Below are positions 2,551 through 55,066 of a stretch of DNA of 63,474 nucleotides, one piece after another. The stretch lies in assembly GCA_028712885.1 (NCBI GenBank), contig JAQTPK010000011.1, forward strand, positions 1 to 63,474. Direction: 5' to 3'. Position numbers and translations under genes: made by a program. The stretch comes from Syntrophales bacterium. GTDB lineage: Bacteria > Desulfobacterota > Syntrophia > Syntrophales > UBA4778. Under the pieces are notes generated by a model, which was not told the origin of the DNA, did no database searches, and worked only from the letters and a program-made list of their open reading frames with translations. Positions within the stretch are counted from its first letter, which is position 1, and every line of letters starts with the position of its first letter.

Positions 2551-2665
2551 AGCGGTAAAAGTGAGCTGAAAGAAAAATGAAGGTATTGCTGCATAATTTC
2601 GCCGGCGGGTTTTTTGGCTTTTTCATGGTCTGCCGGCATCGCTTCAGAGATTGAGACGAAACTGA

Positions 2666-2706
2666 AGCCGCGGGCAGGCCAAACGAGTTGCCCGCGGCTT
2701 TTTTTG
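2666..2706 (+). terminator. Intrinsic terminator (first of a tandem pair)
   Basis: An 11-bp perfect stem, AGCCGCGGGCA (2666-2676) with TGCCCGCGGCT (2689-2699), encloses a 12-base loop. It is followed by a T-run through 2705. No protein gene precedes it on this strand. Confidence 0.85.
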
Positions 2707-2714
2707 CATCTGAA

Positions 2715-2744
2715 AGGCCGTGGAATTCCGCGGCCTTTTTTTTT
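2715..2744 (+). terminator. Intrinsic terminator (second of a tandem pair)
   Basis: The stem GGCCGTGG (2716-2723) pairs with CCGCGGCC (2728-2735) through one G-U wobble and an AATT loop, followed by nine T. It lies 55 bases upstream of the acyl-CoA synthetase start, so that gene needs either a promoter inside this short gap or readthrough. Confidence 0.8.
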
Positions 2745-2798: not shown

Positions 2799-4337
2799 AT
2801 GAAGGGAGTCAATCTGGCGAGTTGTCTGGAAAATTCCGCTCATGCTCATCCGGGGAGGACGGCCTTGATTTTTGAGGACAGGCGATGGACTTTCCGGGAG
2901 CTCGATGCCGAGGCAAACAGGATCGCCAACGGCCTCGTGGACCTTGGGGTGGAGAAGGGGGACCGGGTATCGATATTTCTTCCCAACTGCCCGGAGTTCC
3001 TGTTCTGGTATTTCGGCGCCCTGAAAATGGGAGCTGTGGTCAATCCGATCAATACGATGCTCAGGGAGCGGGAGCTGGAGTACGTGGTCAGGGACTGCAC
3101 GCCGAAAGTCCTCGTCACGTCGGAGGATCTGTCGGCCGTGCCGCTTCACGTTTACGGTCTTCCGGAGACAGGGATCGAAAAACTGATCGTCGTTCAGGGC
3201 AAGGAGTCCGGCGGAATTCTCTCCAACGAAGCATGGCTGAAGCGGTATCCCGCGGCTTTCGACGCAATACCTGTCGAGCGGGACGACCTCGCGGCCATTC
3301 TCTATACCTCCGGGACAACGGGGGAGCCGAAGGGCGTCATGCTGACCCACTTGAATCTCTGGACCAACGCCCGCCACTGCGCCGACTGGGCGGAGACTTC
3401 ATATAAAGACCTTTCCGTCTGTGCCCTGCCGCTTTTCCATTCTTACGCCCTCACCCACGTAGTGGGCGAGCTCTTCATCGAGGGCGGGGCCGTGGCCTGG
3501 CTGAGGCGTTTCGAACCTGCCGCCTTCCTGGACGCGATGGCCCGATACCAGGCTACGGCCTGCCACTGCGTCGCCACGATGTACTATGCCCTGGTAAACC
3601 ATCCCAAGACAGACGACTACGCCCGAAAAATCCGCCTCCGTTACTGCGTGACCGGCGCGGCGGTGACTCCCGAGCCGATTCTCAGGGCCTGGAACGAGAA
3701 GTTCACTCCAATGAGCGAGGGTTACGGGCTTACCGAAGCGGCCCCGGTCGTGTTCATGAATCCGCTGCCGGGGAAGGGCGTGCAGAAGGCGACGTCCTGC
3801 GGCGTTCCCATTGTCCCCGAAATCGAGGCGGGTGTCGTGAATGACGGCGGCAGGCCCGCGGCTGCAGGGGAGGTGGGAGAGCTTATCATCCGGGGGCCGA
3901 ACGTAATGAAGGGCTACTGGAACAAGCCGGAAGCGACTGCGGAAAGCCTCCGGAACGGGTGGCTTTACACGGGGGACATGGTCAGTTTCGACGAGGACGG
4001 CTATTTTTATATCAGGGACAGGAAAAAAGATATGATCTGCCGCGCGGCGTTCAACATCTACCCGAAGGAGCTCGAGGACATCCTGTACACGCATCCCGCC
4101 GTGGCTGAGGCGCAGGTAGTCGGAATCCCCGATCTGGTGAAGGGGGAGGAGGTCGTGGCCTGCCTGGCTCTGAAGCCCGGAAACAAGGTCACGGTGGAAG
4201 AGATCATCCGGTTCTGCCGGAAGGACCTTGCCGCATACAAGGTTCCGAAGTACGTCCGCTTCTTCGACTCACTGCCGAAGACGGTGACGGGCAAGCTGGA
4301 GAAGATGACTTTGCGGAAAATCCTCCTGAGCGGGTAA
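2799..4337 (+). CDS. Acyl-CoA synthetase (AMP-forming), 512 aa
   Basis: An ANL-superfamily ligase that activates a carboxylic acid, probably a fatty acid, to its CoA thioester via an acyl-adenylate. The ATP-binding loop YTSGTTGEPKG is near residues 169-179. The adenylate motif SEGYGLTEAAP, the hinge-side YTGDMVSFDEDGYFYIRDRKKD and the catalytic-lysine segment KTVTGKLEK near the C-terminus follow in the usual order. Length is normal for a FadD-type enzyme. The ATG at 2799 is preceded by GGGAGG; the frame is open further upstream, but those codons run through the two terminators and are rejected as coding. It stands alone on the strand, followed 70 bases later by an MBL-fold hydrolase. Substrate length cannot be read from sequence. 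Confidence 0.93.
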   Translation: MKGVNLASCLENSAHAHPGRTALIFEDRRWTFRELDAEANRIANGLVDLGVEKGDRVSIFLPNCPEFLFWYFGALKMGAVVNPINTMLRERELEYVVRDCTPKVLVTSEDLSAVPLHVYGLPETGIEKLIVVQGKESGGILSNEAWLKRYPAAFDAIPVERDDLAAILYTSGTTGEPKGVMLTHLNLWTNARHCADWAETSYKDLSVCALPLFHSYALTHVVGELFIEGGAVAWLRRFEPAAFLDAMARYQATACHCVATMYYALVNHPKTDDYARKIRLRYCVTGAAVTPEPILRAWNEKFTPMSEGYGLTEAAPVVFMNPLPGKGVQKATSCGVPIVPEIEAGVVNDGGRPAAAGEVGELIIRGPNVMKGYWNKPEATAESLRNGWLYTGDMVSFDEDGYFYIRDRKKDMICRAAFNIYPKELEDILYTHPAVAEAQVVGIPDLVKGEEVVACLALKPGNKVTVEEIIRFCRKDLAAYKVPKYVRFFDSLPKTVTGKLEKMTLRKILLSG

Positions 4338-46014: not shown

Positions 46015-46043
46015 TTGACAAAAACGATCTCAGATTCTAAAAA
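46015..46043 (+). promoter_or_regulatory. Sigma-70 promoter of the 46050-46213 RNA
   Basis: A perfect TTGACA (46015-46020), 17 bases, then TAAAAA (46038-46043). Transcription would begin near 46050. No ORF follows before the terminator at 46213. Confidence 0.6.
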
Positions 46044-46049
46044 CAAATA

Positions 46050-46213
46050 TTATTATCGTATCGGAGAAATGATTTTGTACGGAATCGGCAGGGCAGACTT
46101 TAACTTTTTCGGCTTCTTTTTCTTTTTTGGGGAGGTCTGCCTGCTGCCCTCTTGAACTGACATAAGGAATAGAGGCCGTGGGCGGATAGACACCACCCAC
46201 GGCCTTTTTTTTT
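46050..46213 (+). ncRNA. Candidate small structured RNA, paralogue of 2557-2744
   Basis: An expected transcript of about 165 nt with its own promoter and terminator and no ORF. The main hairpin pairs GGCAG+GGCAGAC (46087-46098) with GTCTGCC+CTGCC (46135-46141, 46144-46148) as a 12-bp stem with a two-base bulge. It encloses a 36-base U-rich loop containing TTTTTCGGCTTC. The terminator stem begins GGCCGTGGG. The other candidate has a stem ending in CTGCCGGC, a U-rich loop with GGCTT and a terminator stem beginning GGCCGTGG. Family membership is inferred by eye. I do not recognise a known Rfam class; 6S RNA is conceivable by size but its bulged rod is not evident. Confidence 0.45.
46172..46213 (+). 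terminator. Intrinsic terminator of the 46050 RNA
   Basis: GGCCGTGGG (46174-46182) pairs with CCCACGGCC (46196-46204), with two more pairs after a mismatch, followed by nine T. Confidence 0.9.
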
Positions 46214-46219
46214 GGGCAC

Positions 46220-46339
46220 GGCTGTTCGAAAACGCCCATCTGCTTCGTTTCCCTTGGCCCTCGGATGCTCACGTACGATTCAGTACGCTCCGCTCCTCGG
46301 GCCTGCGGGGGCCTCGCATCTGGGCATTTTGGAACAGCC
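46220..46339. repeat. 120-bp imperfect palindromic element
   Basis: The outer arms GGCTGTTCGAAAACGCCCAT (from 46220) and TGGGCATTTTGGAACAGCC (to 46339) are complementary with a few mismatches. The centre has CGTAC/GTACG around GATTCA, flanked by GGCCCTCGGATGCTCA and TCCGCTCCTCGGGCC, which also partly pair. It has the compact terminal-inverted layout of a REP or MITE-like mobile palindrome. It encodes nothing. It lies directly after the small-RNA terminator and unlike the short-unit repeats has no tandem units. Confidence 0.7.
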
Positions 46340-46376
46340 TGAAGGAGAGTGGCGTAGCCTGTCCTGGGCGGGCATT

Positions 46377-46496
46377 TAGTTTCAAGTTCCAGGTCCCAAG
46401 TCTCAGGTTAATTAGTCAGAAAACCGGGACTCTGGGCTTGATTAGGCGATTCTGGTTTTTACCTTGAGACTTGAAACATGAGACTTGAGACTGAAC
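46377..46496. repeat. Short-unit palindromic repeat, GAGACTTGAGACT class
   Basis: The left arm, GTTTCAAGTTCCAGGTCCC then AAGTCTCAGGTT (46379-46409), and the right arm, CCTTGAGACTTGAAACATGA then GACTTGAGACTGAAC (46461-46495), are complementary. It shares units with the repeat at 27508. It runs to within five bases of the livK ribosome binding site. Confidence 0.8.
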
Positions 46497-46508
46497 AAGG
46501 GGGACATT

Positions 46509-47711
46509 ATGAGCAGGATATCTTTACTCGTCAAGGCAATGGCGATCATAGCGGCGATACTTACGGCCGGCGCCGTGAATGCCGCGGAGCCGATAAAGGT
46601 CGGCGCGGCGATCAACCTTACAGGTCCCGCATCAAGCTGGGGACAGTATCATGCGAAGGGCCATCAGGATTATTTCAATTACGTCAACGAGGTGAAAGGA
46701 GGCGTTGCCGGCCGGAAGATAGAGCTTATTCTGGTCGATACGGCATATAGAGTCCCTGAGGCAGTCGCAGCCGTCAGGAAGTTCGCCGATCAGAACAAAG
46801 TGGATATGATCGCCACCTGGGGCGCGGGAGAAGGATTGGCGGCAAAGCCGATTATTCAGAAATACAGGATACCAACGATAAATTATTCGACCAGCTGGGA
46901 GATTCTCGGCCGGCCGATCAGCTATATGTATCTCCCCTTCGGGAGCTACCGCATGGACAGCTTTGCGGTTCTCGAATATATCCGTTCCATCCATAAAGGT
47001 AAAAGCAGGCCCAAAGTAGGCCTCCTCACGTATAACAACGCCTATGGGCGATCCATCCACCAGCCGAGCAGGGAATATGCCGCCGCGGCAGGCATAGATA
47101 TCGTGACCATTGAGGAATTCCCTCCCAAGACCGTCGACCTGTCCACGGAACTGCTCCGGCTCAAGAGGAGCGGAGCCGAATACGTTTTCATGCAGATGCT
47201 CCCGGCAACAATAATCACCGCCTTGAAAGGAGCCGACCGCATACAATACCAGCCGGCATTTTTCGGAACCTGGACTTCCACGGATCCGGACTTCTTCAGG
47301 CTGGGCAGGGGTATTATCAGGGACAGACTGCGGATACAGTTTCCGGGAGGACTTCCCTCCGACCGGACCCGCGGGATGAAGACAATGCAGGAATTGTGGA
47401 GGCGCTACAAGACAGTCGACCGCTTCGACGCCTCATACTGGGAAGGCGTTGCCGTCGCCATGATCATGGAAAGGGCTTTTCAGCGAGCCGGCCAGAAATA
47501 CGGACGGATCGACAGAGAGACAATAAACAGCGCGATGGAGACATTCAATAATGAGGATTTCGGAGGACTACTGCCGAATGTGACTTACAGTAAAACAAAC
47601 CATGAGGGCTCGTTCAAAGCCAGAATCGTGCAAGTTCACGAAAACGGAACCTACAAACCGCTGACGAACTTCTTTGTGCCGGGGAAAGAGAAAATAAAAT
47701 TGCTGAAATAG
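46509..47711 (+). CDS. ABC transporter substrate-binding protein (LivK-like)
   Basis: A periplasmic binding protein of the branched-chain amino acid/amide class (peripla_BP_6). The signal peptide is LLVKAMAIIAAILTAGAVNA, cleaved before AEPIKVG. IKVGAAINLTGPASSWGQYH begins the fold, and the interdomain pattern VGLLTYNNAYGRS and FFGTWTSTDPDF follows. Length, 400, is normal. ATG 46509 has AAGGGGG upstream. It is the first gene of the importer cluster. The ligand is probably an organic acid or aromatic rather than leucine, because two CoA ligases are embedded in the cluster; this is inference. Confidence 0.92.
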   Translation: MSRISLLVKAMAIIAAILTAGAVNAAEPIKVGAAINLTGPASSWGQYHAKGHQDYFNYVNEVKGGVAGRKIELILVDTAYRVPEAVAAVRKFADQNKVDMIATWGAGEGLAAKPIIQKYRIPTINYSTSWEILGRPISYMYLPFGSYRMDSFAVLEYIRSIHKGKSRPKVGLLTYNNAYGRSIHQPSREYAAAAGIDIVTIEEFPPKTVDLSTELLRLKRSGAEYVFMQMLPATIITALKGADRIQYQPAFFGTWTSTDPDFFRLGRGIIRDRLRIQFPGGLPSDRTRGMKTMQELWRRYKTVDRFDASYWEGVAVAMIMERAFQRAGQKYGRIDRETINSAMETFNNEDFGGLLPNVTYSKTNHEGSFKARIVQVHENGTYKPLTNFFVPGKEKIKLLK

Positions 47712-47840: not shown

Positions 47841-48713
47841 TTGAAATCGTTTCGCGGCGAACCGGAAATATACCGGCAAAGAGATCAGGGGCGTACGGAA
47901 GCGGAACTGGAGGTCAAGTCTCTCAGCCTCAGTTTCGGAGGAATTCAGGCCCTTTCCGATATCGATATGGAGGTGCATACGGGGGAGCTTGTTGCCGTCA
48001 TCGGTCCGAACGGTGCGGGAAAAACGAGCCTCCTCAACTGCATGACCGGGTATTACCGGCCGCAGAAAGGGAGAATTATCTTCAACGGGAAGGATGTAAC
48101 GCGGCATTCGACGCACAGCCTGACCAGGGTCGGAATAGGGAGGACTTTTCAGAATATAGAGTTGTTTCCCGGAATGACTGTGCTTTCGAACATGATGCTG
48201 GGACGGCACATCCATTGCCGGTACGGCCTGATTCCCGGATGTTTCTTCAGCCCTTCCGTCCGCAAGGAGGAAATCCGGCACAGGAGAATACTGGAAGAGA
48301 TTATCGATTTCCTCGAGATGCAGGCTATCAGGAATAAACCGGTCGGCTCCCTTCCTTACGGAATGAGAAAAAGGGTCGAACTCGGCCGCGCCCTGGCCCT
48401 TGATCCCCGCCTGCTTGTCCTCGATGAGCCTTTTGCGGGCATGACGCTCGAGGAAAAGGAAGACATGGTGCGTTTTCTCCTGGAGCTGAACGCGGGGTGG
48501 GGACAGACAATGATTCTTGTCGAGCACGACATGTCCATCGTGATGAGCATCTCCACGCGCGTTACGGTTCTCAACTTCGGAGAGAAGCTTGCGGAAGGAA
48601 CCCCGGAGGCGGTGCAGTCCGATCCCAAAGTAATTGCCGCGTACCTCGGCGGAGGACAGGAAAACGGGAACGGACTTTCGCGGGATAACGGGCTTCAGGC
48701 GGACATCGGATAG
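47841..48713 (+). CDS. ABC transporter ATP-binding protein (LivG-like)
   Basis: One of the two ATPases of the importer. Walker A is GPNGAGKTS near residue 53. The Q-loop lies in IGRTFQNIELFPGMT. The signature position reads SLPYGMRKRVELGRAL, which replaces LSGGQ with PYGMR as is common in LivG. Walker B is LLVLDEPFAGMT and the H-loop EHDM. It is 290 residues with a start at TTG 47841 behind GGGAG; the first 20 residues (KSFRGEPEIYRQRDQGRTE) are a non-conserved extension. The stop is directly followed by the ATG of the CoA ligase gene. Confidence 0.93.
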   Translation: MKSFRGEPEIYRQRDQGRTEAELEVKSLSLSFGGIQALSDIDMEVHTGELVAVIGPNGAGKTSLLNCMTGYYRPQKGRIIFNGKDVTRHSTHSLTRVGIGRTFQNIELFPGMTVLSNMMLGRHIHCRYGLIPGCFFSPSVRKEEIRHRRILEEIIDFLEMQAIRNKPVGSLPYGMRKRVELGRALALDPRLLVLDEPFAGMTLEEKEDMVRFLLELNAGWGQTMILVEHDMSIVMSISTRVTVLNFGEKLAEGTPEAVQSDPKVIAAYLGGGQENGNGLSRDNGLQADIG

Positions 48714-50663
48714 ATGAGTACACTCCCTGAAAGAATGCATAATCCGGAGGATGCGCTGGAGGCCATGCGCAGGATGACTCTCCCGCAGGTGCTGGCTATG
48801 CAGGCGGGGCGGCTCGGCGACAGGACGGCGATCCGGGAGAAAGCCTACGGTATATGGCAGACGTACAGCTGGGCTGACTATTACAGCCATGTCCGTCGGG
48901 TCGGGATGGGGCTGCTTTCCATCGGACTCTGCCGCGGGGATCATGTCGGGATCATCACCAACAATCATCCCGAATGGCTCTTCAGCGAGCTCGGCGCCCA
49001 GGCCGTGGGAGGCGTCACCCTGAATCTCTTTACGTCTTCCGTGGCGGACGAGATAGCGTCCGCCCTGGGCAGGATACAGGCGTCATATGTTATCGTGGAG
49101 GACCAGGAGCAGGCGGACAAGCTGATCGAGGCCAGGAGGAAACTCGGGCACGTCAGGAAAGTTATTTATATGGACCCGACGGGTATGCGGAGCCTGGCGG
49201 GAGAAGAATGGCTGATCAGTTTCCGCGATCTGCTGGAACTCGGGAATTCCGAAGACGTCGGCCAACCCGGGCGGTTTGAAAAAGAAATGGGGAGGGGCAG
49301 CCCGAAAGAGGTAGCGCTTATGCTGCTGACCTCGGGAACAACGGGCATACCGAAGCTGGCCATGCTCACCCACCGGAACCTGACGTCCATGGCCGCAAAC
49401 TGGAACCGGAGCTCACCGGCCGGGGTCGGGTCCGACTGGCTGTCCATGACTCCCCCCGCCTGGATTGTCGATCAGATGTGGGGGATGGGAGTAGCGCTGC
49501 TGGGCGGAATGGTCATGAATTTCCCGGAGACCCCGGATACGATCTCTGAAGACTTCCGCGAAATAGGCCCCAGCATTCTGATCACGTCATCCCGGTTCTG
49601 GGAGGACCTGGCCTCGAGGATTCGCGTGCGGATGAGCGATGCAGGCGCCGTGCGGAAAAAGATGTTCGAACTGGCTGAAGACCTGGGCAAACGCTGCGTA
49701 GACCTCGAAAATGCAAAGAGTGCGGTGCCGCTTCATCTTAGAATCCTTCGCGCGATTTCTTCCGTCGCCGTATACAAGCCTCTTCTCGACAGGATAGGTT
49801 GCTCCCATTTTGTCTCCGCATATACCGGTGGGCACCCGATCAGTCCGGACGTGATCCGGTTCTTCCGCGCGATGGGCCTTAACCTGAAACAGTGCTACGG
49901 ATTGACGGAGGCGGGAGGCATTTTCCAGGTGCAGCCTGACGGGGAGGTGAAGCTCGAGACGGTCGGCAAACCCCTCCCGGGCGTAAGGGTTCAGCTTTCC
50001 GATGAAGAGGAAGTAATGGTTTCCGGAGATTCCATCTTCGCCGGCTATTACCGGGATTTCGAAGCCACTTCCGCGGCCTTCCATAACGGATGGCTGAAGA
50101 CGGGGGACGCAGGTTTCATCGACAGGGAGGGACACCTCCTCATCATCGGGCGGAAAAGCGAGATAATCCGCAACAAGTCAGGGGCGGCCTTCTCTCCTGA
50201 TTTCATCGAGACCCGCCTGAAGTTCAGCCCGTATATAAAGGAGGCGGTTGTATTCGGCGAAGGGCGGCCGTTCATCACCGCCCTGATCAATATCGATCCG
50301 GGAAATGTCGGAAGCTGGGCGGAAGAGAGGATGATTCCGTACACCACGTATACGGATCTCTCCCAGCAGCCGGCCGTAATGGAGTTAATCCGGCGCGAAA
50401 TCGAGGAGGTAAACGGCCAACTGCCGGATCACATGAAGATCCGCCGCTTCATTCTTCTTTACAAGCTCCTCGATGCGGATGACGAAGAGCTGACCCGGAC
50501 CGGAAAAGTACGGCGTCAGTTTGTGTATGGTCTTTACCTCCGGCTGATCGAGGCCATGTACGGCAGGGAAAAGGAACTGAGCGTGCAGGGCAAGGTCAGG
50601 TACAGGGACGGCAGGGTGGGGAAAATAGAAACAACAGTAAAAATAGCGGATGTTAAACAGTGA
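48714..50663 (+). CDS. AMP-dependent acyl-CoA synthetase, long-chain type, 649 aa
   Basis: An ANL ligase of the FadD15/long-chain type. The ATP loop is LLTSGTTGIPKLA near residue 205. LKQCYGLTEAGG is the adenylate motif, LKTGDAGFIDREGHLLIIGRKSEIIRNKSG the hinge region, and LTRTGKVRR the C-terminal lysine segment. At 649 residues it is the larger bacterial class. The ATG abuts the livG-like stop, so it is an integral part of the importer operon, and it probably traps the imported acid as a CoA thioester. It is unrelated in detail to the shorter synthetase at 2799. Confidence 0.94.
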   Translation: MSTLPERMHNPEDALEAMRRMTLPQVLAMQAGRLGDRTAIREKAYGIWQTYSWADYYSHVRRVGMGLLSIGLCRGDHVGIITNNHPEWLFSELGAQAVGGVTLNLFTSSVADEIASALGRIQASYVIVEDQEQADKLIEARRKLGHVRKVIYMDPTGMRSLAGEEWLISFRDLLELGNSEDVGQPGRFEKEMGRGSPKEVALMLLTSGTTGIPKLAMLTHRNLTSMAANWNRSSPAGVGSDWLSMTPPAWIVDQMWGMGVALLGGMVMNFPETPDTISEDFREIGPSILITSSRFWEDLASRIRVRMSDAGAVRKKMFELAEDLGKRCVDLENAKSAVPLHLRILRAISSVAVYKPLLDRIGCSHFVSAYTGGHPISPDVIRFFRAMGLNLKQCYGLTEAGGIFQVQPDGEVKLETVGKPLPGVRVQLSDEEEVMVSGDSIFAGYYRDFEATSAAFHNGWLKTGDAGFIDREGHLLIIGRKSEIIRNKSGAAFSPDFIETRLKFSPYIKEAVVFGEGRPFITALINIDPGNVGSWAEERMIPYTTYTDLSQQPAVMELIRREIEEVNGQLPDHMKIRRFILLYKLLDADDEELTRTGKVRRQFVYGLYLRLIEAMYGREKELSVQGKVRYRDGRVGKIETTVKIADVKQ

Positions 50664-50730: not shown

Positions 50731-51609
50731 ATGGACTTTTTTCTGCAGCTTCTGGTCAACGGCATTTGCATCGGTTTCCTTTACGGAATTTCCGCGATGG
50801 GATTCGTTATGATTTTCAAGTCCTCGAGCGTGGTAAACTTCGCCCACGGAGAATTGCTTGCGGCCGGCGCATTTCTTTTCCTGGCCCTCGTCACCTGGGC
50901 GAATCTGCCTGTCCCTGCAGCGTTTCTGCTAACGCTGGCCGGCACTTTCATTCTCGGATTCGTTATCGAGCGGCTTTTTCTCCGGCCTCTGATCGGAGAG
51001 CCGCTGATCGAGGTGGTCATGCTTACGATCGGCCTGGCCTCGATCCTGAAAGGGGCGATGCTCCTGATCTGGGGCGGCAATCTTCACAATTATCCGGATT
51101 TCCTGCCGGAAGGTCTCGGGCTGCATTTTGGTGCGGTCAGCATTCCGCCCGTATATACGACATCTATTCTGATCAGCATCCTTTTTCTGCTTCTCTTCGG
51201 CCTGTTTTTCAAATTTTCATCGCAGGGCATCTACATGAGATCGGTCGCAGATAACCAGACGGCCGCGCTTTCGCTGGGAGTGCATGTAAAGAAGGTGTTC
51301 GCCCTGTCCTGGGCCATAGCGGCGCTGGTTGCCGGGATGAGCGGGATAGTTCTCGGGATAATCAACGGGATCAATGTCCATGAATTGAGCGCAATCGGCC
51401 TGAAAGTATTTCCCGTTGTCATTCTGGGCGGCCTTGACAGCATCGGAGGAGCGATTATCGGAGGTTTGATTATCGGGCTGCTGGAGACATTCACCGGCGG
51501 GTACATCTCTACTTCGCTTCGTGATGTGATTCCATATATCGCCCTGGTAGTGATACTGCTCATCCGTCCGTACGGGCTGTTCGGGCTGGTGGAAATAGAA
51601 CGGGTATAA
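50731..51609 (+). CDS. ABC transporter permease (LivH-like)
   Basis: A 292-residue inner-membrane permease with about eight hydrophobic helices. Family marks are QLLVNGICIGFLYGISAMGF at the start, VVNFAHGELLAAGAF, and the late IIGGLIIGLLETFTGGY with GGLDSIGGA as the ATPase-contact loop. ATG 50731 has GAGGTGACGG upstream. livM follows ten bases later. Confidence 0.95.
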   Translation: MDFFLQLLVNGICIGFLYGISAMGFVMIFKSSSVVNFAHGELLAAGAFLFLALVTWANLPVPAAFLLTLAGTFILGFVIERLFLRPLIGEPLIEVVMLTIGLASILKGAMLLIWGGNLHNYPDFLPEGLGLHFGAVSIPPVYTTSILISILFLLLFGLFFKFSSQGIYMRSVADNQTAALSLGVHVKKVFALSWAIAALVAGMSGIVLGIINGINVHELSAIGLKVFPVVILGGLDSIGGAIIGGLIIGLLETFTGGYISTSLRDVIPYIALVVILLIRPYGLFGLVEIERV

Positions 51610-51619
51610 AAACAGGATT

Positions 51620-52690
51620 ATGCGAGACTTAAAATTTCATCCCTGCGGGAATTACCGGGAAAGCTACCGCGAGGAGCTGACCGTTTTTGAGACGGATTTC
51701 GGCCGTCTCTGGATGGCGCTCGGGCTGGCGGTCCTTTTCGGCGTCGTCCCCTGGACAACCAGTCCCTATATGCTGTACGTGATCAACACGATCGGCATAA
51801 TGGCCATTGCCGCCATCGGGCTGAATATTCTGATCGGCTCCACCGGCCTGATCTCGCTCGGCCATGGCGCCTTTTTCGGGGTGGGCGCATACGCCGCCGG
51901 GGTCCTGGCCTCCTCCTGGAACGTTCCGATATATCTCGCGGTGCCCGCCGCCGGGATCATAACAGCACTGACCGGCATGATTTTCGGAATTCCGTCCGGA
52001 AGGCTCAAGGGCTTGTATTTGGCCATAGCCACCCTTGCCGGACAGTTCATCATCGAATACGTCCTGGTGCACTGGGAGGATGTGACCCAGGGAACGATGG
52101 GCATAACGTTGCCTGATCCCTCCATTCTCGGGGTGTCCCTGCGGGGCGACAGGCCTTTCTTCTTCGTCATCTTTATCGTGTTGGCGGCAATGACATGGAT
52201 GGCCGTAAACATCATGCGGACAAGGTTCGGGCGGGCCTTTGTTGCGATACGCGACAACGACAGGGCGGCGGAAGGGATGGGAATACCCGTCTTCCCGTAC
52301 AAGCTGCTGTCTTTCGGAATCAGCTCTTTTTATGCGGGTATAGCCGGCGCGATCTGGGCATTTTACATGATCAGCATAACGGCTGAACCTTTCACAATGA
52401 TGATGTCCGTAGAATTCATTGCGATGGTGATTATCGGGGGGTTGGGAAGCATCTCCGGGTCGATATTAGGAGCAGTTTTTATAACGATGCTCAACGAAAC
52501 CCTCCGCTGGGTCACTGACATACTGATGAATGCAGGAGGACTTGCCGGTTTGGAACTGACGCTTGCACCTCTGCGGGAACTCGCCTTCGGGCTCGCGATA
52601 GTGCTGTTCATTCTCTTTGAGCCGAAAGGATTGGCGGAAATCTGGAGGGTGGTCAGGTCCAGTTTCCGGCTCTGGCCGTTCTCGTATTAA
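51620..52690 (+). CDS. ABC transporter permease (LivM-like)
   Basis: The second permease, 356 residues. It shows a cytoplasmic N-terminus of about 30 residues, GLNILIGSTGLISLGHGAF, ALTGMIFGIPSGRLKGLYLA, FGRAFVAIRDNDRAAEGMGI (the coupling helix with the RDND motif) and VIIGGLGSISGSILGA. Eight or more helices are evident. It pairs with the LivH-like protein. The stop is followed by a palindromic repeat before livF. Confidence 0.95.
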   Translation: MRDLKFHPCGNYRESYREELTVFETDFGRLWMALGLAVLFGVVPWTTSPYMLYVINTIGIMAIAAIGLNILIGSTGLISLGHGAFFGVGAYAAGVLASSWNVPIYLAVPAAGIITALTGMIFGIPSGRLKGLYLAIATLAGQFIIEYVLVHWEDVTQGTMGITLPDPSILGVSLRGDRPFFFVIFIVLAAMTWMAVNIMRTRFGRAFVAIRDNDRAAEGMGIPVFPYKLLSFGISSFYAGIAGAIWAFYMISITAEPFTMMMSVEFIAMVIIGGLGSISGSILGAVFITMLNETLRWVTDILMNAGGLAGLELTLAPLRELAFGLAIVLFILFEPKGLAEIWRVVRSSFRLWPFSY

Positions 52691-52790: not shown

Positions 52791-53600
52791 GTGAATGATA
52801 TGGATTCTGACATTCTATTACAGTTGAATAACATCACCGTAGTGTATTCGGACGTGATCCAGGTCCTGCGGGGAGTTTCTCTCGCGGTCAGGGAAAGGCA
52901 GATCGTCTCACTCCTGGGAAGCAACGGCGCAGGGAAGACCACAACACTGAAGGCGGTTTCGGGACTGCTGAAACCCGAAAACGGAAAAGTCACCGACGGA
53001 ACCATCAGCTACGAAGATAAGACCGTCCAGAACCTCTCTCCCGAAGAAATAACGCGAAAGGGCATTATCCAGGTGCTTGAAGGCAGACAACCGTTCAAAT
53101 ATCTGACGGTAGAGGAGAATCTGAAAGTCGGCACCGCGACCAGATGGGGCAAGCCGTATCGCAAGGACCTGGAAATGGTTTACAATTATTTCCCGCGTCT
53201 TAAGGAACGGCGGAAAAACCTTGCCGGCTACTGCAGCGGCGGCGAACTGCAGATGCTTGTGATGGGCAGGGCTTTAATGGCGCACCCGAAACTGCTTCTC
53301 CTGGACGAGCCTTCCCTCGGACTGGCGCCTCTGGTTGTGCAGGAGATATTCCGGATTATCGTGAAGATCAACGAGGAACAGCAGACGACGATCGTTCTCG
53401 TGGAACAGAACGCAAGTATGGCGCTGGGAATCGCGCACTACGGATACGTGATGGAAAACGGCAAAATAGTGATGGAAGGAAGAGCGGGAGACCTGCAAAA
53501 AAATCCCGACATCAAGGAATTCTACCTCGGAATGGGCGCGGCGGGCGCCAAGTCGTACAAGGATGTGAAGGCTTATAAGCGGCGCAAACGCTGGCTGTAG
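52791..53600 (+). CDS. ABC transporter ATP-binding protein (LivF-like)
   Basis: The second ATPase, 269 residues. Walker A is GSNGAGKTT near residue 43. The signature reads YCSGGELQ instead of LSGGE, Walker B is LLLLDEPSLGLAP, and the H-loop lies in LVEQNA. The start is GTG 52791 or ATG 52800; neither has a Shine-Dalgarno because the repeat abuts the gene. The C-terminus is unusually basic (YKDVKAYKRRKRW). Confidence 0.94.
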   Translation: MNDMDSDILLQLNNITVVYSDVIQVLRGVSLAVRERQIVSLLGSNGAGKTTTLKAVSGLLKPENGKVTDGTISYEDKTVQNLSPEEITRKGIIQVLEGRQPFKYLTVEENLKVGTATRWGKPYRKDLEMVYNYFPRLKERRKNLAGYCSGGELQMLVMGRALMAHPKLLLLDEPSLGLAPLVVQEIFRIIVKINEEQQTTIVLVEQNASMALGIAHYGYVMENGKIVMEGRAGDLQKNPDIKEFYLGMGAAGAKSYKDVKAYKRRKRWL

Positions 53601-53818: not shown

Positions 53819-55066
53819 ATGGCTGGGTTTTTCGATAGTAAAGAGGCGATGGATCCGGAAGAACGGGCTGCGCTCCAGGACGCGTGCGTGGCGAAAATGG
53901 CGGAAGAAGGGTATGGAAAGGCGCCCGGATTCCGCGCGCTGCTGAAAGGGCTCGGGATAGAACCGGCAGGCATAAGGACGGCGGCGGACCTGGAGAAGCT
54001 GCCGGTAATATCCCGGGAGAAGCTGGTTCAAATGCAGATTGCCGAACCTCCATATGGAGGACTTAAGGGCGGCGATGCCGATGTGGACAGGGTTTTCATA
54101 TCGCCAGGCCCGGTTTACGAGCCGCACCTGTCCGAAACCGACCATCTATGGGCGCGAGCTTATCATGCGGCCGGTTTCCGCAAAGGGGATGTGGTGGTCA
54201 ATACCTTTTCGTACCATATGGTCGCGGCCGGACTTACCTTTCACGGCGGATTGAGAAGCTGCGGCGCAACGGTCGTGCCGTCGGGAACTTCCGGCACGCA
54301 GGTCCAGGTCGAGCTGATCCGGGACATAGGGGTGACCGGATATACGGGAACGCCGAGTTTTCTTCTGGCAATTATCCGGAAAGCGGAAGATATGGGGTAT
54401 GATATGCGGCGTGACTTCAGGCTGAAACGAGCCTGTTTTGCCGCCGAGCCGCTCGATCCTTCCTTGAGGGAACTCTTCGAAAACAGGTACGGGATAGAGA
54501 CATACCAGATATACGGGGCTACGGAAGTCGGCGACGTCGCTTTTGAATGCCGGGAAAAGTCGGGATGGCATGTCTGCGAGGAGGTGCTTGTCGAGATCGT
54601 CGATCCGGCAACCGGAAGGAGGACGCCTCCGGGAGAAGCGGGAGAGGTAGTGGTGACTCGCTTCAACTCCGTTTTCTTTCTCATGAGGTTCGGGACCGGC
54701 GACCTGTCGCGGATTATCGAGGAACCGTGCGGATGCGGGAGGACCTCGGTGAGAATTGCGGGAGTGTTGGGGAGAACAGGGGACGCGGTCAAGGTCAGGG
54801 GGATGTTCATCGCTCCGAGTCAGCTCGAATCGCTTCACCGGAGGTTTCCGGAAATCAATTTTCAGGCCGCGGTCGGCAGGTCCGGACATGCGGACGTGCT
54901 CACCGTGCGCATAGAATCTGACGAGGCGGGATTGAGGGCGCTTCAGGACAGATTCTCGGAGGCTTTCCGCCAGACCTGCACGGTAAAGATCGACCGCTTC
55001 GAGCGTGCCGCACCGGGATCGCTGTCGGGAGCAAAACGGCTTGTCGACGAAAGATTGAGAAGCTGA
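53819..55066 (+). CDS. Phenylacetate-CoA ligase-like enzyme (PaaK family)
   Basis: A 415-residue ANL ligase of the PaaK type, which activates aryl acids with ATP and CoA. YQIYGATEVGDVAFEC and FGTGDLSRII, followed by CGCGRTSVRIAGVLGRTGDAVKVRG, are typical. The N-terminal ATP loop is diverged: PaaK proteins have SSGTTG but here the position reads RVFISPGPVYEPH. ATG 53819 has GGGGG upstream. It sits at the end of the importer cluster on the same strand, in line with uptake and CoA activation of an aromatic or branched acid. Function with the altered loop is uncertain. Confidence 0.87.
   Translation: MAGFFDSKEAMDPEERAALQDACVAKMAEEGYGKAPGFRALLKGLGIEPAGIRTAADLEKLPVISREKLVQMQIAEPPYGGLKGGDADVDRVFISPGPVYEPHLSETDHLWARAYHAAGFRKGDVVVNTFSYHMVAAGLTFHGGLRSCGATVVPSGTSGTQVQVELIRDIGVTGYTGTPSFLLAIIRKAEDMGYDMRRDFRLKRACFAAEPLDPSLRELFENRYGIETYQIYGATEVGDVAFECREKSGWHVCEEVLVEIVDPATGRRTPPGEAGEVVVTRFNSVFFLMRFGTGDLSRIIEEPCGCGRTSVRIAGVLGRTGDAVKVRGMFIAPSQLESLHRRFPEINFQAAVGRSGHADVLTVRIESDEAGLRALQDRFSEAFRQTCTVKIDRFERAAPGSLSGAKRLVDERLRS

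Follow-up and report, generated by a model that had tools for sequence, protein, structure and literature searches.

The window analysed here (63,474 nucleotides of contig JAQTPK010000011.1, assembly GCA_028712885.1, of a Syntrophales bacterium; the term denotes this whole stretch throughout) carries two regions of like architecture, at positions 2557-2744 (copy 1) and 46015-46213 (copy 2), which had been interpreted in an original prediction as possible members of a new small RNA family that, if paralogous, might sense or regulate acyl-CoA metabolism. Which kind of element do these loci represent, and what would they regulate? Judged from sequence comparison, both very probably act in cis as transcription attenuators, in which a translating ribosome gauges how much charged tRNA-Phe is available. 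The attenuation mechanism is textbook; of interest are its targets and the wide family of such leaders. With this reading, the vague assignment as a new small RNA gives way to a testable regulatory one.

Anatomy of the two leaders

At copy 2 all parts of the original prediction were present, i.e. the TTGACA-N17-TAAAAA promoter, the U-rich hairpin with TTTTTCGGCTTC and the GGCCGTGGG terminator (Table 1); in 95 of 97 relatives the leader is preceded by a TTGAC element. The hairpin exists, its dimensions (given as 12 bp with a 36-base loop) have to be revised: The fold yields 15 pairs plus a bulge of 2 bases, and the loop comprises about 30 bases. Two features had been overlooked, the open reading frame running through each hairpin and the pairing of the hairpin 3' arm with the terminator 5' arm. 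Translated in frame, the "U-rich loop" of both the copy 1 and the copy 2 hairpin is a run of Phe codons, and according to the computed folds segment 2 (the 3' arm of the hairpin, GGTCTGCC) is able to exchange the hairpin 5' arm for the 5' arm of the terminator. The folded stretches were more stable than shuffles in both cases (z of −3.4 for copy 2 and −3.0 for copy 1). The Shine-Dalgarno sequence of copy 1 is weak; in copy 2 just 2 bases separate GGAG and ATG. As originally stated, both loci lie ahead of acyl-CoA synthetase genes.

Table 1. Positions of the leader elements and downstream genes in the window (stems numbered by the paired segments).
Feature	Position	Strand	Basis or remark
Copy 1, leader peptide ORF MKVLLHNFAGGFFGFFMVCRHRFRD	2577-2654	+	translation; 25 codons
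Copy 1, hairpin 1:2	2601-2637	+	−16.1 kcal/mol
Copy 1, antiterminator 2:3, GGTCTGCC...GCTTCAG with CTGAAGC...GGCAGGCC	2626-2681	+	−30.3 kcal/mol
Copy 1, terminator 3:4	2665-2705	+	−25.3 kcal/mol
Copy 1, second terminator, tandem	2712-2744	+	−20.3 kcal/mol
Acyl-CoA ligase, putative target of the copy 1 leader	2799-4337	+	
Copy 2, promoter: TTGACA (46015-46020), 17 bases, TAAAAA (46038-46043)	46015-46043	+	sequence
Copy 2, leader peptide ORF MILYGIGRADFNFFGFFFFFGEVCLLPS, GGAG immediately 5'	46069-46155	+	sequence, translation; 28 codons
Copy 2, hairpin 1:2 (arms 46087-46101 and 46132-46148), Phe codons in loop	46087-46148	+	−22.7 kcal/mol
Copy 2, antiterminator 2:3, GGTCTGCCTGCTGCCCTCT with AGAGGCCGTGGGCGGATAG, alternative to 1:2 and 3:4	46134-46187	+	−24.7 kcal/mol; covariation, 83 relatives
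Copy 2, intrinsic terminator 3:4 and U tract	46171-46213	+	−25.3 kcal/mol
livK-like periplasmic binding protein (Peripla_BP_6)	46509-47711	+	
livG-like ABC ATPase	47841-48713	+	
AMP-binding acyl-CoA ligase, FadD11-like	48714-50663	+	
livH-like permease	50731-51609	+	
livM-like permease	51620-52690	+	
livF-like ABC ATPase	52791-53600	+	
PaaK-like ligase (phenylacetate-CoA ligase family)	53819-55066	+	score under the NCBIfam equivalog cut-off for PaaK

A search of the genome DNA with the copy 2 leader returned a strong self-match and otherwise short, weak matches; copy 1 was represented among the latter by 18 bases of the tail. The FFGFF pattern occurs eight times in the genome DNA; among the six occurrences inspected, only copies 1 and 2 were leader-like, and no Phe-rich short ORF was found at the FFGFF sites L011 and L012.

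The copy 2 terminator and livK are separated by 295 bases (region noted: 46214-46480) that include a repeat-like stretch, the first bases of which were found again on several other contigs; an imperfect inverted repeat (46375-46411/46459-46495) also lies in this interval. In a relative of another genus (L018) the gap between terminator and livK amounts to only about 100 bases. A second terminator-like hairpin of the GGCCGTGG...CCGCGGCC type directly follows the attenuator terminator in copy 1 and at the loci L018, L020, L094 and L095.

Conservation of the reading frame and of the alternative stems

LivK homologues were detected in 118 of the 155 genomes of the class, the named relatives being mostly Syntrophaceae, Syntrophobacterales or Syntrophales, Smithella and unclassified Deltaproteobacteria. 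The upstream region was examined at 112 of 119 livK places (seven with missing N-terminus were left out). A Phe-rich short ORF, defined by at least 5 F in 10 residues, was present 5' of livK at 92 of the 112 places, and the corresponding controls gave 4 of 112 (reverse complements) and 12 of 560 (dinucleotide shuffles); several of the 20 places below this criterion possess an F/Y-rich leader under the cut-off or are truncated. Fifteen of the 112 rows failed the anchor expression, eight of which were tested with the covariance model (five matched, three did not); at three livK places (L145, L183 and L185) there was neither an element by eye nor a covariance-model match.

Among the 95 anchored rows, the coding frame contains 5.4 Phe codons per 12 versus 2.6 and 2.7 in the other frames and is interrupted by an in-frame stop in 2 rows versus 89 for frame 2 (the frame and Shine-Dalgarno counts omit two rows with insufficient upstream sequence). 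In each of these 95 rows the ORF ends at one of two fixed distances from the GTC of segment 2, with 6 codons following it in 87 rows and 3 codons in the other 8. A Shine-Dalgarno-like 4-mer precedes 77 of 89 leaders versus 10 of 89 in the control window, a difference that has to be read with the start having been picked to favor such a sequence; 6 of the 95 rows are without in-frame ATG. The peptides encoded upstream of livK consist of 22.7% F and 0.0% W and share a conserved C-terminus, (G/E)VCLxxS.

The antiterminator covaries: In an alignment of 83 of the 97 rows (near-identical and too-short ones removed), the 2:3 stem was paired in 87.6% of cells, a share that never exceeded 46.5% after sliding. 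The covariation score of this stem was higher than in all 500 shuffles, with the relatedness of the rows as a caveat to this comparison; the counts of pairs and of pair types in the same alignment were not above those of the shuffles. Terminator 3:4 was formed in 95.3% of cells and revealed the same shuffle pattern. When segments 2 and 3 were folded alone with the bases between them, 96 of the 97 rows formed the 2:3 stem, z having a median of −4.5. Both sides are altered together in L023, where GGTCTGCC is changed to GGTCTACC with the compensating GGTAGACC; one 2:3 pair is broken in L154. A part of segment 3, GGCAGACC, is positioned toward the terminator loop, and its conservation is hard to explain except through a predicted pairing with segment 2.

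Outside the class a Phe leader was observed at 8 of 18 inspected livK loci, all eight in family f52. At these loci the ORF ends ahead of segment 2 and segments 2 and 3 are kept nonetheless, some with compensated changes, which separates the conservation of the RNA from that of the peptide.

The likeness of the two copies in the window, asserted from the outset, goes beyond chance: A covariance model built from 83 livK leaders, with copy 1 left out, gave copy 1 a score of 69 bits, with E values of 7.9e-13 for a search of 91 kb and 2.5e-11 for one of the whole genome. Conservation in related genomes, likewise, holds for either locus. Besides the livK leaders, three of the four copy 1 orthologues were matched by the model (70-89 bits); no leader was found at the fourth, L093. 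In the orthologue L095 the frame is shifted by one base in the T tract after the Phe run, so that translation would run past the usual stop; an error in the sequence, slippage or decay could each account for this.

A family of aromatic amino acid leaders

A third site of this genome was found by the covariance model (L220:2150-2307; G000:C63) before aroF-aroB-pheA-aroD, the products of which include DAHP synthase and, from pheA, chorismate mutase plus prephenate dehydratase. Its leader peptide, MGNSVCTRLNGWFSYYYFGAQVCPSVGGM, comprises W, F and Y codons, and at this site the regulatory codons are in keeping with what the genes do. Of 35 further model matches drawn from a longer list, 29 precede pheA on the same strand at a distance of 2.4-3.7 kb; among 15 loci inspected, 12 are such shikimate-operon sites, whose leaders by eye all contain Tyr and Phe and in 11 cases Trp. 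The sensed codons thus follow the operon, with W, F and Y at the shikimate genes and F alone at liv-paaK, and the RNA core can apparently stay while they change. Comparison establishes the frame and its Phe codons, the two alternative stems with their covariation, the constant stop position and the sister at aroF-aroB-pheA.

Phylum-wide, 136 of 395 genomes gave covariance-model matches. The leaders of L246-L264 are aromatic, and by eye DAHP synthase, chorismate synthase, an aldolase-like protein and LivK are among the downstream gene products. In families f9 and f13 (L230, L231 and L232) Phe-rich leaders are located ahead of other genes, one of them thiolase-like by eye.

At its gathering score Rfam recognized two tRNAs only in the window. 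In permissive scans Leu_leader (RF00512) matched copy 1 with 34.3 bits, below its gathering score of 50, and copy 2 was absent among the RF00512 matches listed; the match spans only 2662-2741 with the two tandem terminators, and the copy 1 leader codes for Phe and has no Leu run. The trpB motif (RF04312) remained at 22.2 bits for copy 2 in the permissive scan, below its gathering score of 59. Copies 1 and 2 are, by their sequences, members of a conserved family of predicted aromatic amino acid attenuators that is unmatched by Rfam above threshold.

The pheA and pheST leaders of gamma-proteobacteria consist of a short Phe-rich peptide, a hairpin 1:2, an antiterminator 2:3 and a terminator 3:4, and the present loci resemble them in the Phe-rich peptide and all three stems. 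They differ in their targets, a Liv-type transporter with acyl-CoA ligases, and in the conserved GGUCUGCC/GGGCAGACC core, for which no Rfam leader family exceeded its threshold. The aroF-aroB-pheA sisters have the same RNA core and layout as the liv-paaK leaders and are found by the same model; they are distinguished by their W, Y and F codons and by genes of aromatic amino acid biosynthesis. Phenylalanine and pheST attenuators are on record in PMC1262725, as are predicted trp, leuS and ilv attenuators of Actinobacteria with regulatory codons in leader peptides, those of trp having a conserved complementary triple between antiterminator and terminator. The present loci share the leader peptides with regulatory codons with these actinobacterial attenuators, and the complementary triple with those of trp; they differ from them in phylum, amino acids and RNA core. 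In the literature searched, largely outside subscription journals, Phe attenuators were described neither for these bacteria nor before such an operon.

Proposed mechanism and role of the operon

Based on the leader position, the conserved Phe-rich frame and the mutually exclusive stems, the element should sense charged tRNA-Phe via the ribosome. RNA polymerase would synthesize the leader RNA, and a ribosome would translate the Phe-rich peptide. If Phe-tRNA is ample, the ribosome would proceed to the stop codon and cover segment 2 (GGUCUGCC), with the result that segment 3 would pair with segment 4 and transcription would end. If Phe-tRNA is short, the ribosome would stall at the Phe codons and cover segment 1; segment 2 would then pair with segment 3 (GGGCAGACC), and the polymerase would continue into livK-livG-ligase-livH-livM-livF-paaK (copy 2) or the acyl-CoA ligase gene (copy 1). 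Phe shortage would, in short, probably turn these operons on. We infer translation, stalling, termination and Phe dependence of the leaders, as well as the masking of segment 2 by the finishing ribosome, from an arrangement that displays the traits of a classical attenuator: a short ORF before the first gene (on comparative grounds), a codon run for one amino acid, an intrinsic terminator, an antiterminator that excludes both the terminator and the first hairpin, and a stop fixed relative to segment 2.

A trans-acting small RNA family with two paralogues would agree with the own strong promoter, the hairpin and the terminator, which together would delimit a discrete RNA of about 165 bases, and trans functions of attenuated leaders have been reported for other bacteria (PMC7298713). 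This explanation is nevertheless very improbable: The conserved unit is an open frame with a fixed stop directly before the same operon types, and an antiterminator would be superfluous in a stand-alone RNA. What had been termed a small RNA family is rather to be regarded, from its conserved Phe frame and exclusive antiterminator and terminator stems, as the leader of the following operon. Equally little credit is given to a TnaC-like arrest, in which the C-terminus EVCL..S of the nascent peptide would stall the ribosome on a small molecule. The conserved (G/E)VCLxxS end would suit such a device; these residues, however, are those encoded by segment 2, the partner of segment 3, and the bases are conserved even at the eight f52 loci where the ORF stops ahead of it. 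In addition, the codon content (F versus W, F and Y) tracks the role of the operon.

Least probable of all is a riboswitch that would bind an acyl-CoA, an aryl acid or phenylalanine directly. The alternative structures and the position before acyl-CoA ligase genes would agree with it, but no Rfam family matched at gathering score, and the permissive scans brought none above its threshold. Nothing like a conserved junction or binding pocket was seen, and the conserved loop consists of Phe codons in one frame. On these grounds the small RNA, the acyl-CoA riboswitch and the peptide-arrest switch were rejected. The suggested connection with acyl-CoA metabolism persists in part, as the regulated genes concern acyl-CoA formation; with respect to sensing it does not, for the leader should read charged tRNA-Phe.

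The purpose of the operon is the point on which a further alternative parts, and solely so, from the tRNA-Phe attenuator as preferred here: The leader would be a Phe attenuator, and the operon would serve other ends than Phe supply, e.g. a catabolism of fatty or aromatic acids that responds to Phe starvation or growth state. This is a serious contender, if somewhat short of an even chance. Liv-type transport and acyl-CoA ligases are compatible with acid catabolism, and the Phe leaders of f9 and f13 stand before other genes; the Phe-only leader (devoid of W) alongside a W/F/Y leader at the shikimate operon, in contrast, argues for a Phe-specific role, as does the presence of iorA in 145 of the 155 genomes of the class, although this gene is widespread in any case.

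Phe-rich leaders on genes for uptake and acid activation suggest that these genes help the cell to obtain Phe. With less certainty, the liv-paaK operon may supply Phe, perhaps by importing phenylacetate or another aryl acid; the leader, the type of transporter and the PaaK-like ligase together suggest this role, although no one of them defines the substrate. The imported aryl acid would be activated to its CoA ester, which would be carboxylated reductively (indolepyruvate ferredoxin oxidoreductase operating in reverse) and the product transaminated. A route from phenylacetate to Phe occurs in rumen bacteria and methanogens. More tentatively still, one modular core might extend through the class and other families of the phylum with its codon cassettes swapped, i.e. 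W/F/Y at the shikimate operon and F alone at a Phe acquisition system with import of an aryl acid (e.g. phenylacetate), PaaK-/FadD-like activation and reductive carboxylation to phenylpyruvate, by which syntrophic anaerobes would make Phe from the aryl acids of their neighbours. A class-wide Phe attenuator would provide a functional hint for a highly conserved, uncharacterised transporter/ligase operon of largely uncultured syntrophic bacteria; if aryl acids are indeed converted to Phe, genes of the route could be named and the reading of aromatic metabolism in methanogenic communities would be aided.

The gene order after livK is kept in many of the 23 relatives that were laid out by crude ORF calling, in which overlapping frames hide some genes; the fullest copies were those of L058, L060, L062, L067, L075, L077, L087 and L091. 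The best PDB match of LivK was 3lkb (114 bits), its relatives being too distant for naming a ligand. Both pheA and iorA are present in this genome; owing to pheA, the livK operon is not the sole route to Phe. The iorA gene, which the proposed reductive carboxylation would require, lies outside the livK operon, and no Phe leader was detected 5' of the three iorA-like genes inspected in this genome. A comparison of 109 of the 119 livK places with the 109 best iorA places yielded 34 pairs that share a contig; in 31 of these, iorA follows livK on the same strand at a distance of 17-60 kb. By eye, the neighbours of iorA resemble iorB and a dnaJ-like gene, and the spacing is therefore taken as conserved gene order and not as one operon. 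One iorA-like match of this genome (L188; G000:C51:10851-12320) contains two in-frame TGA codons.
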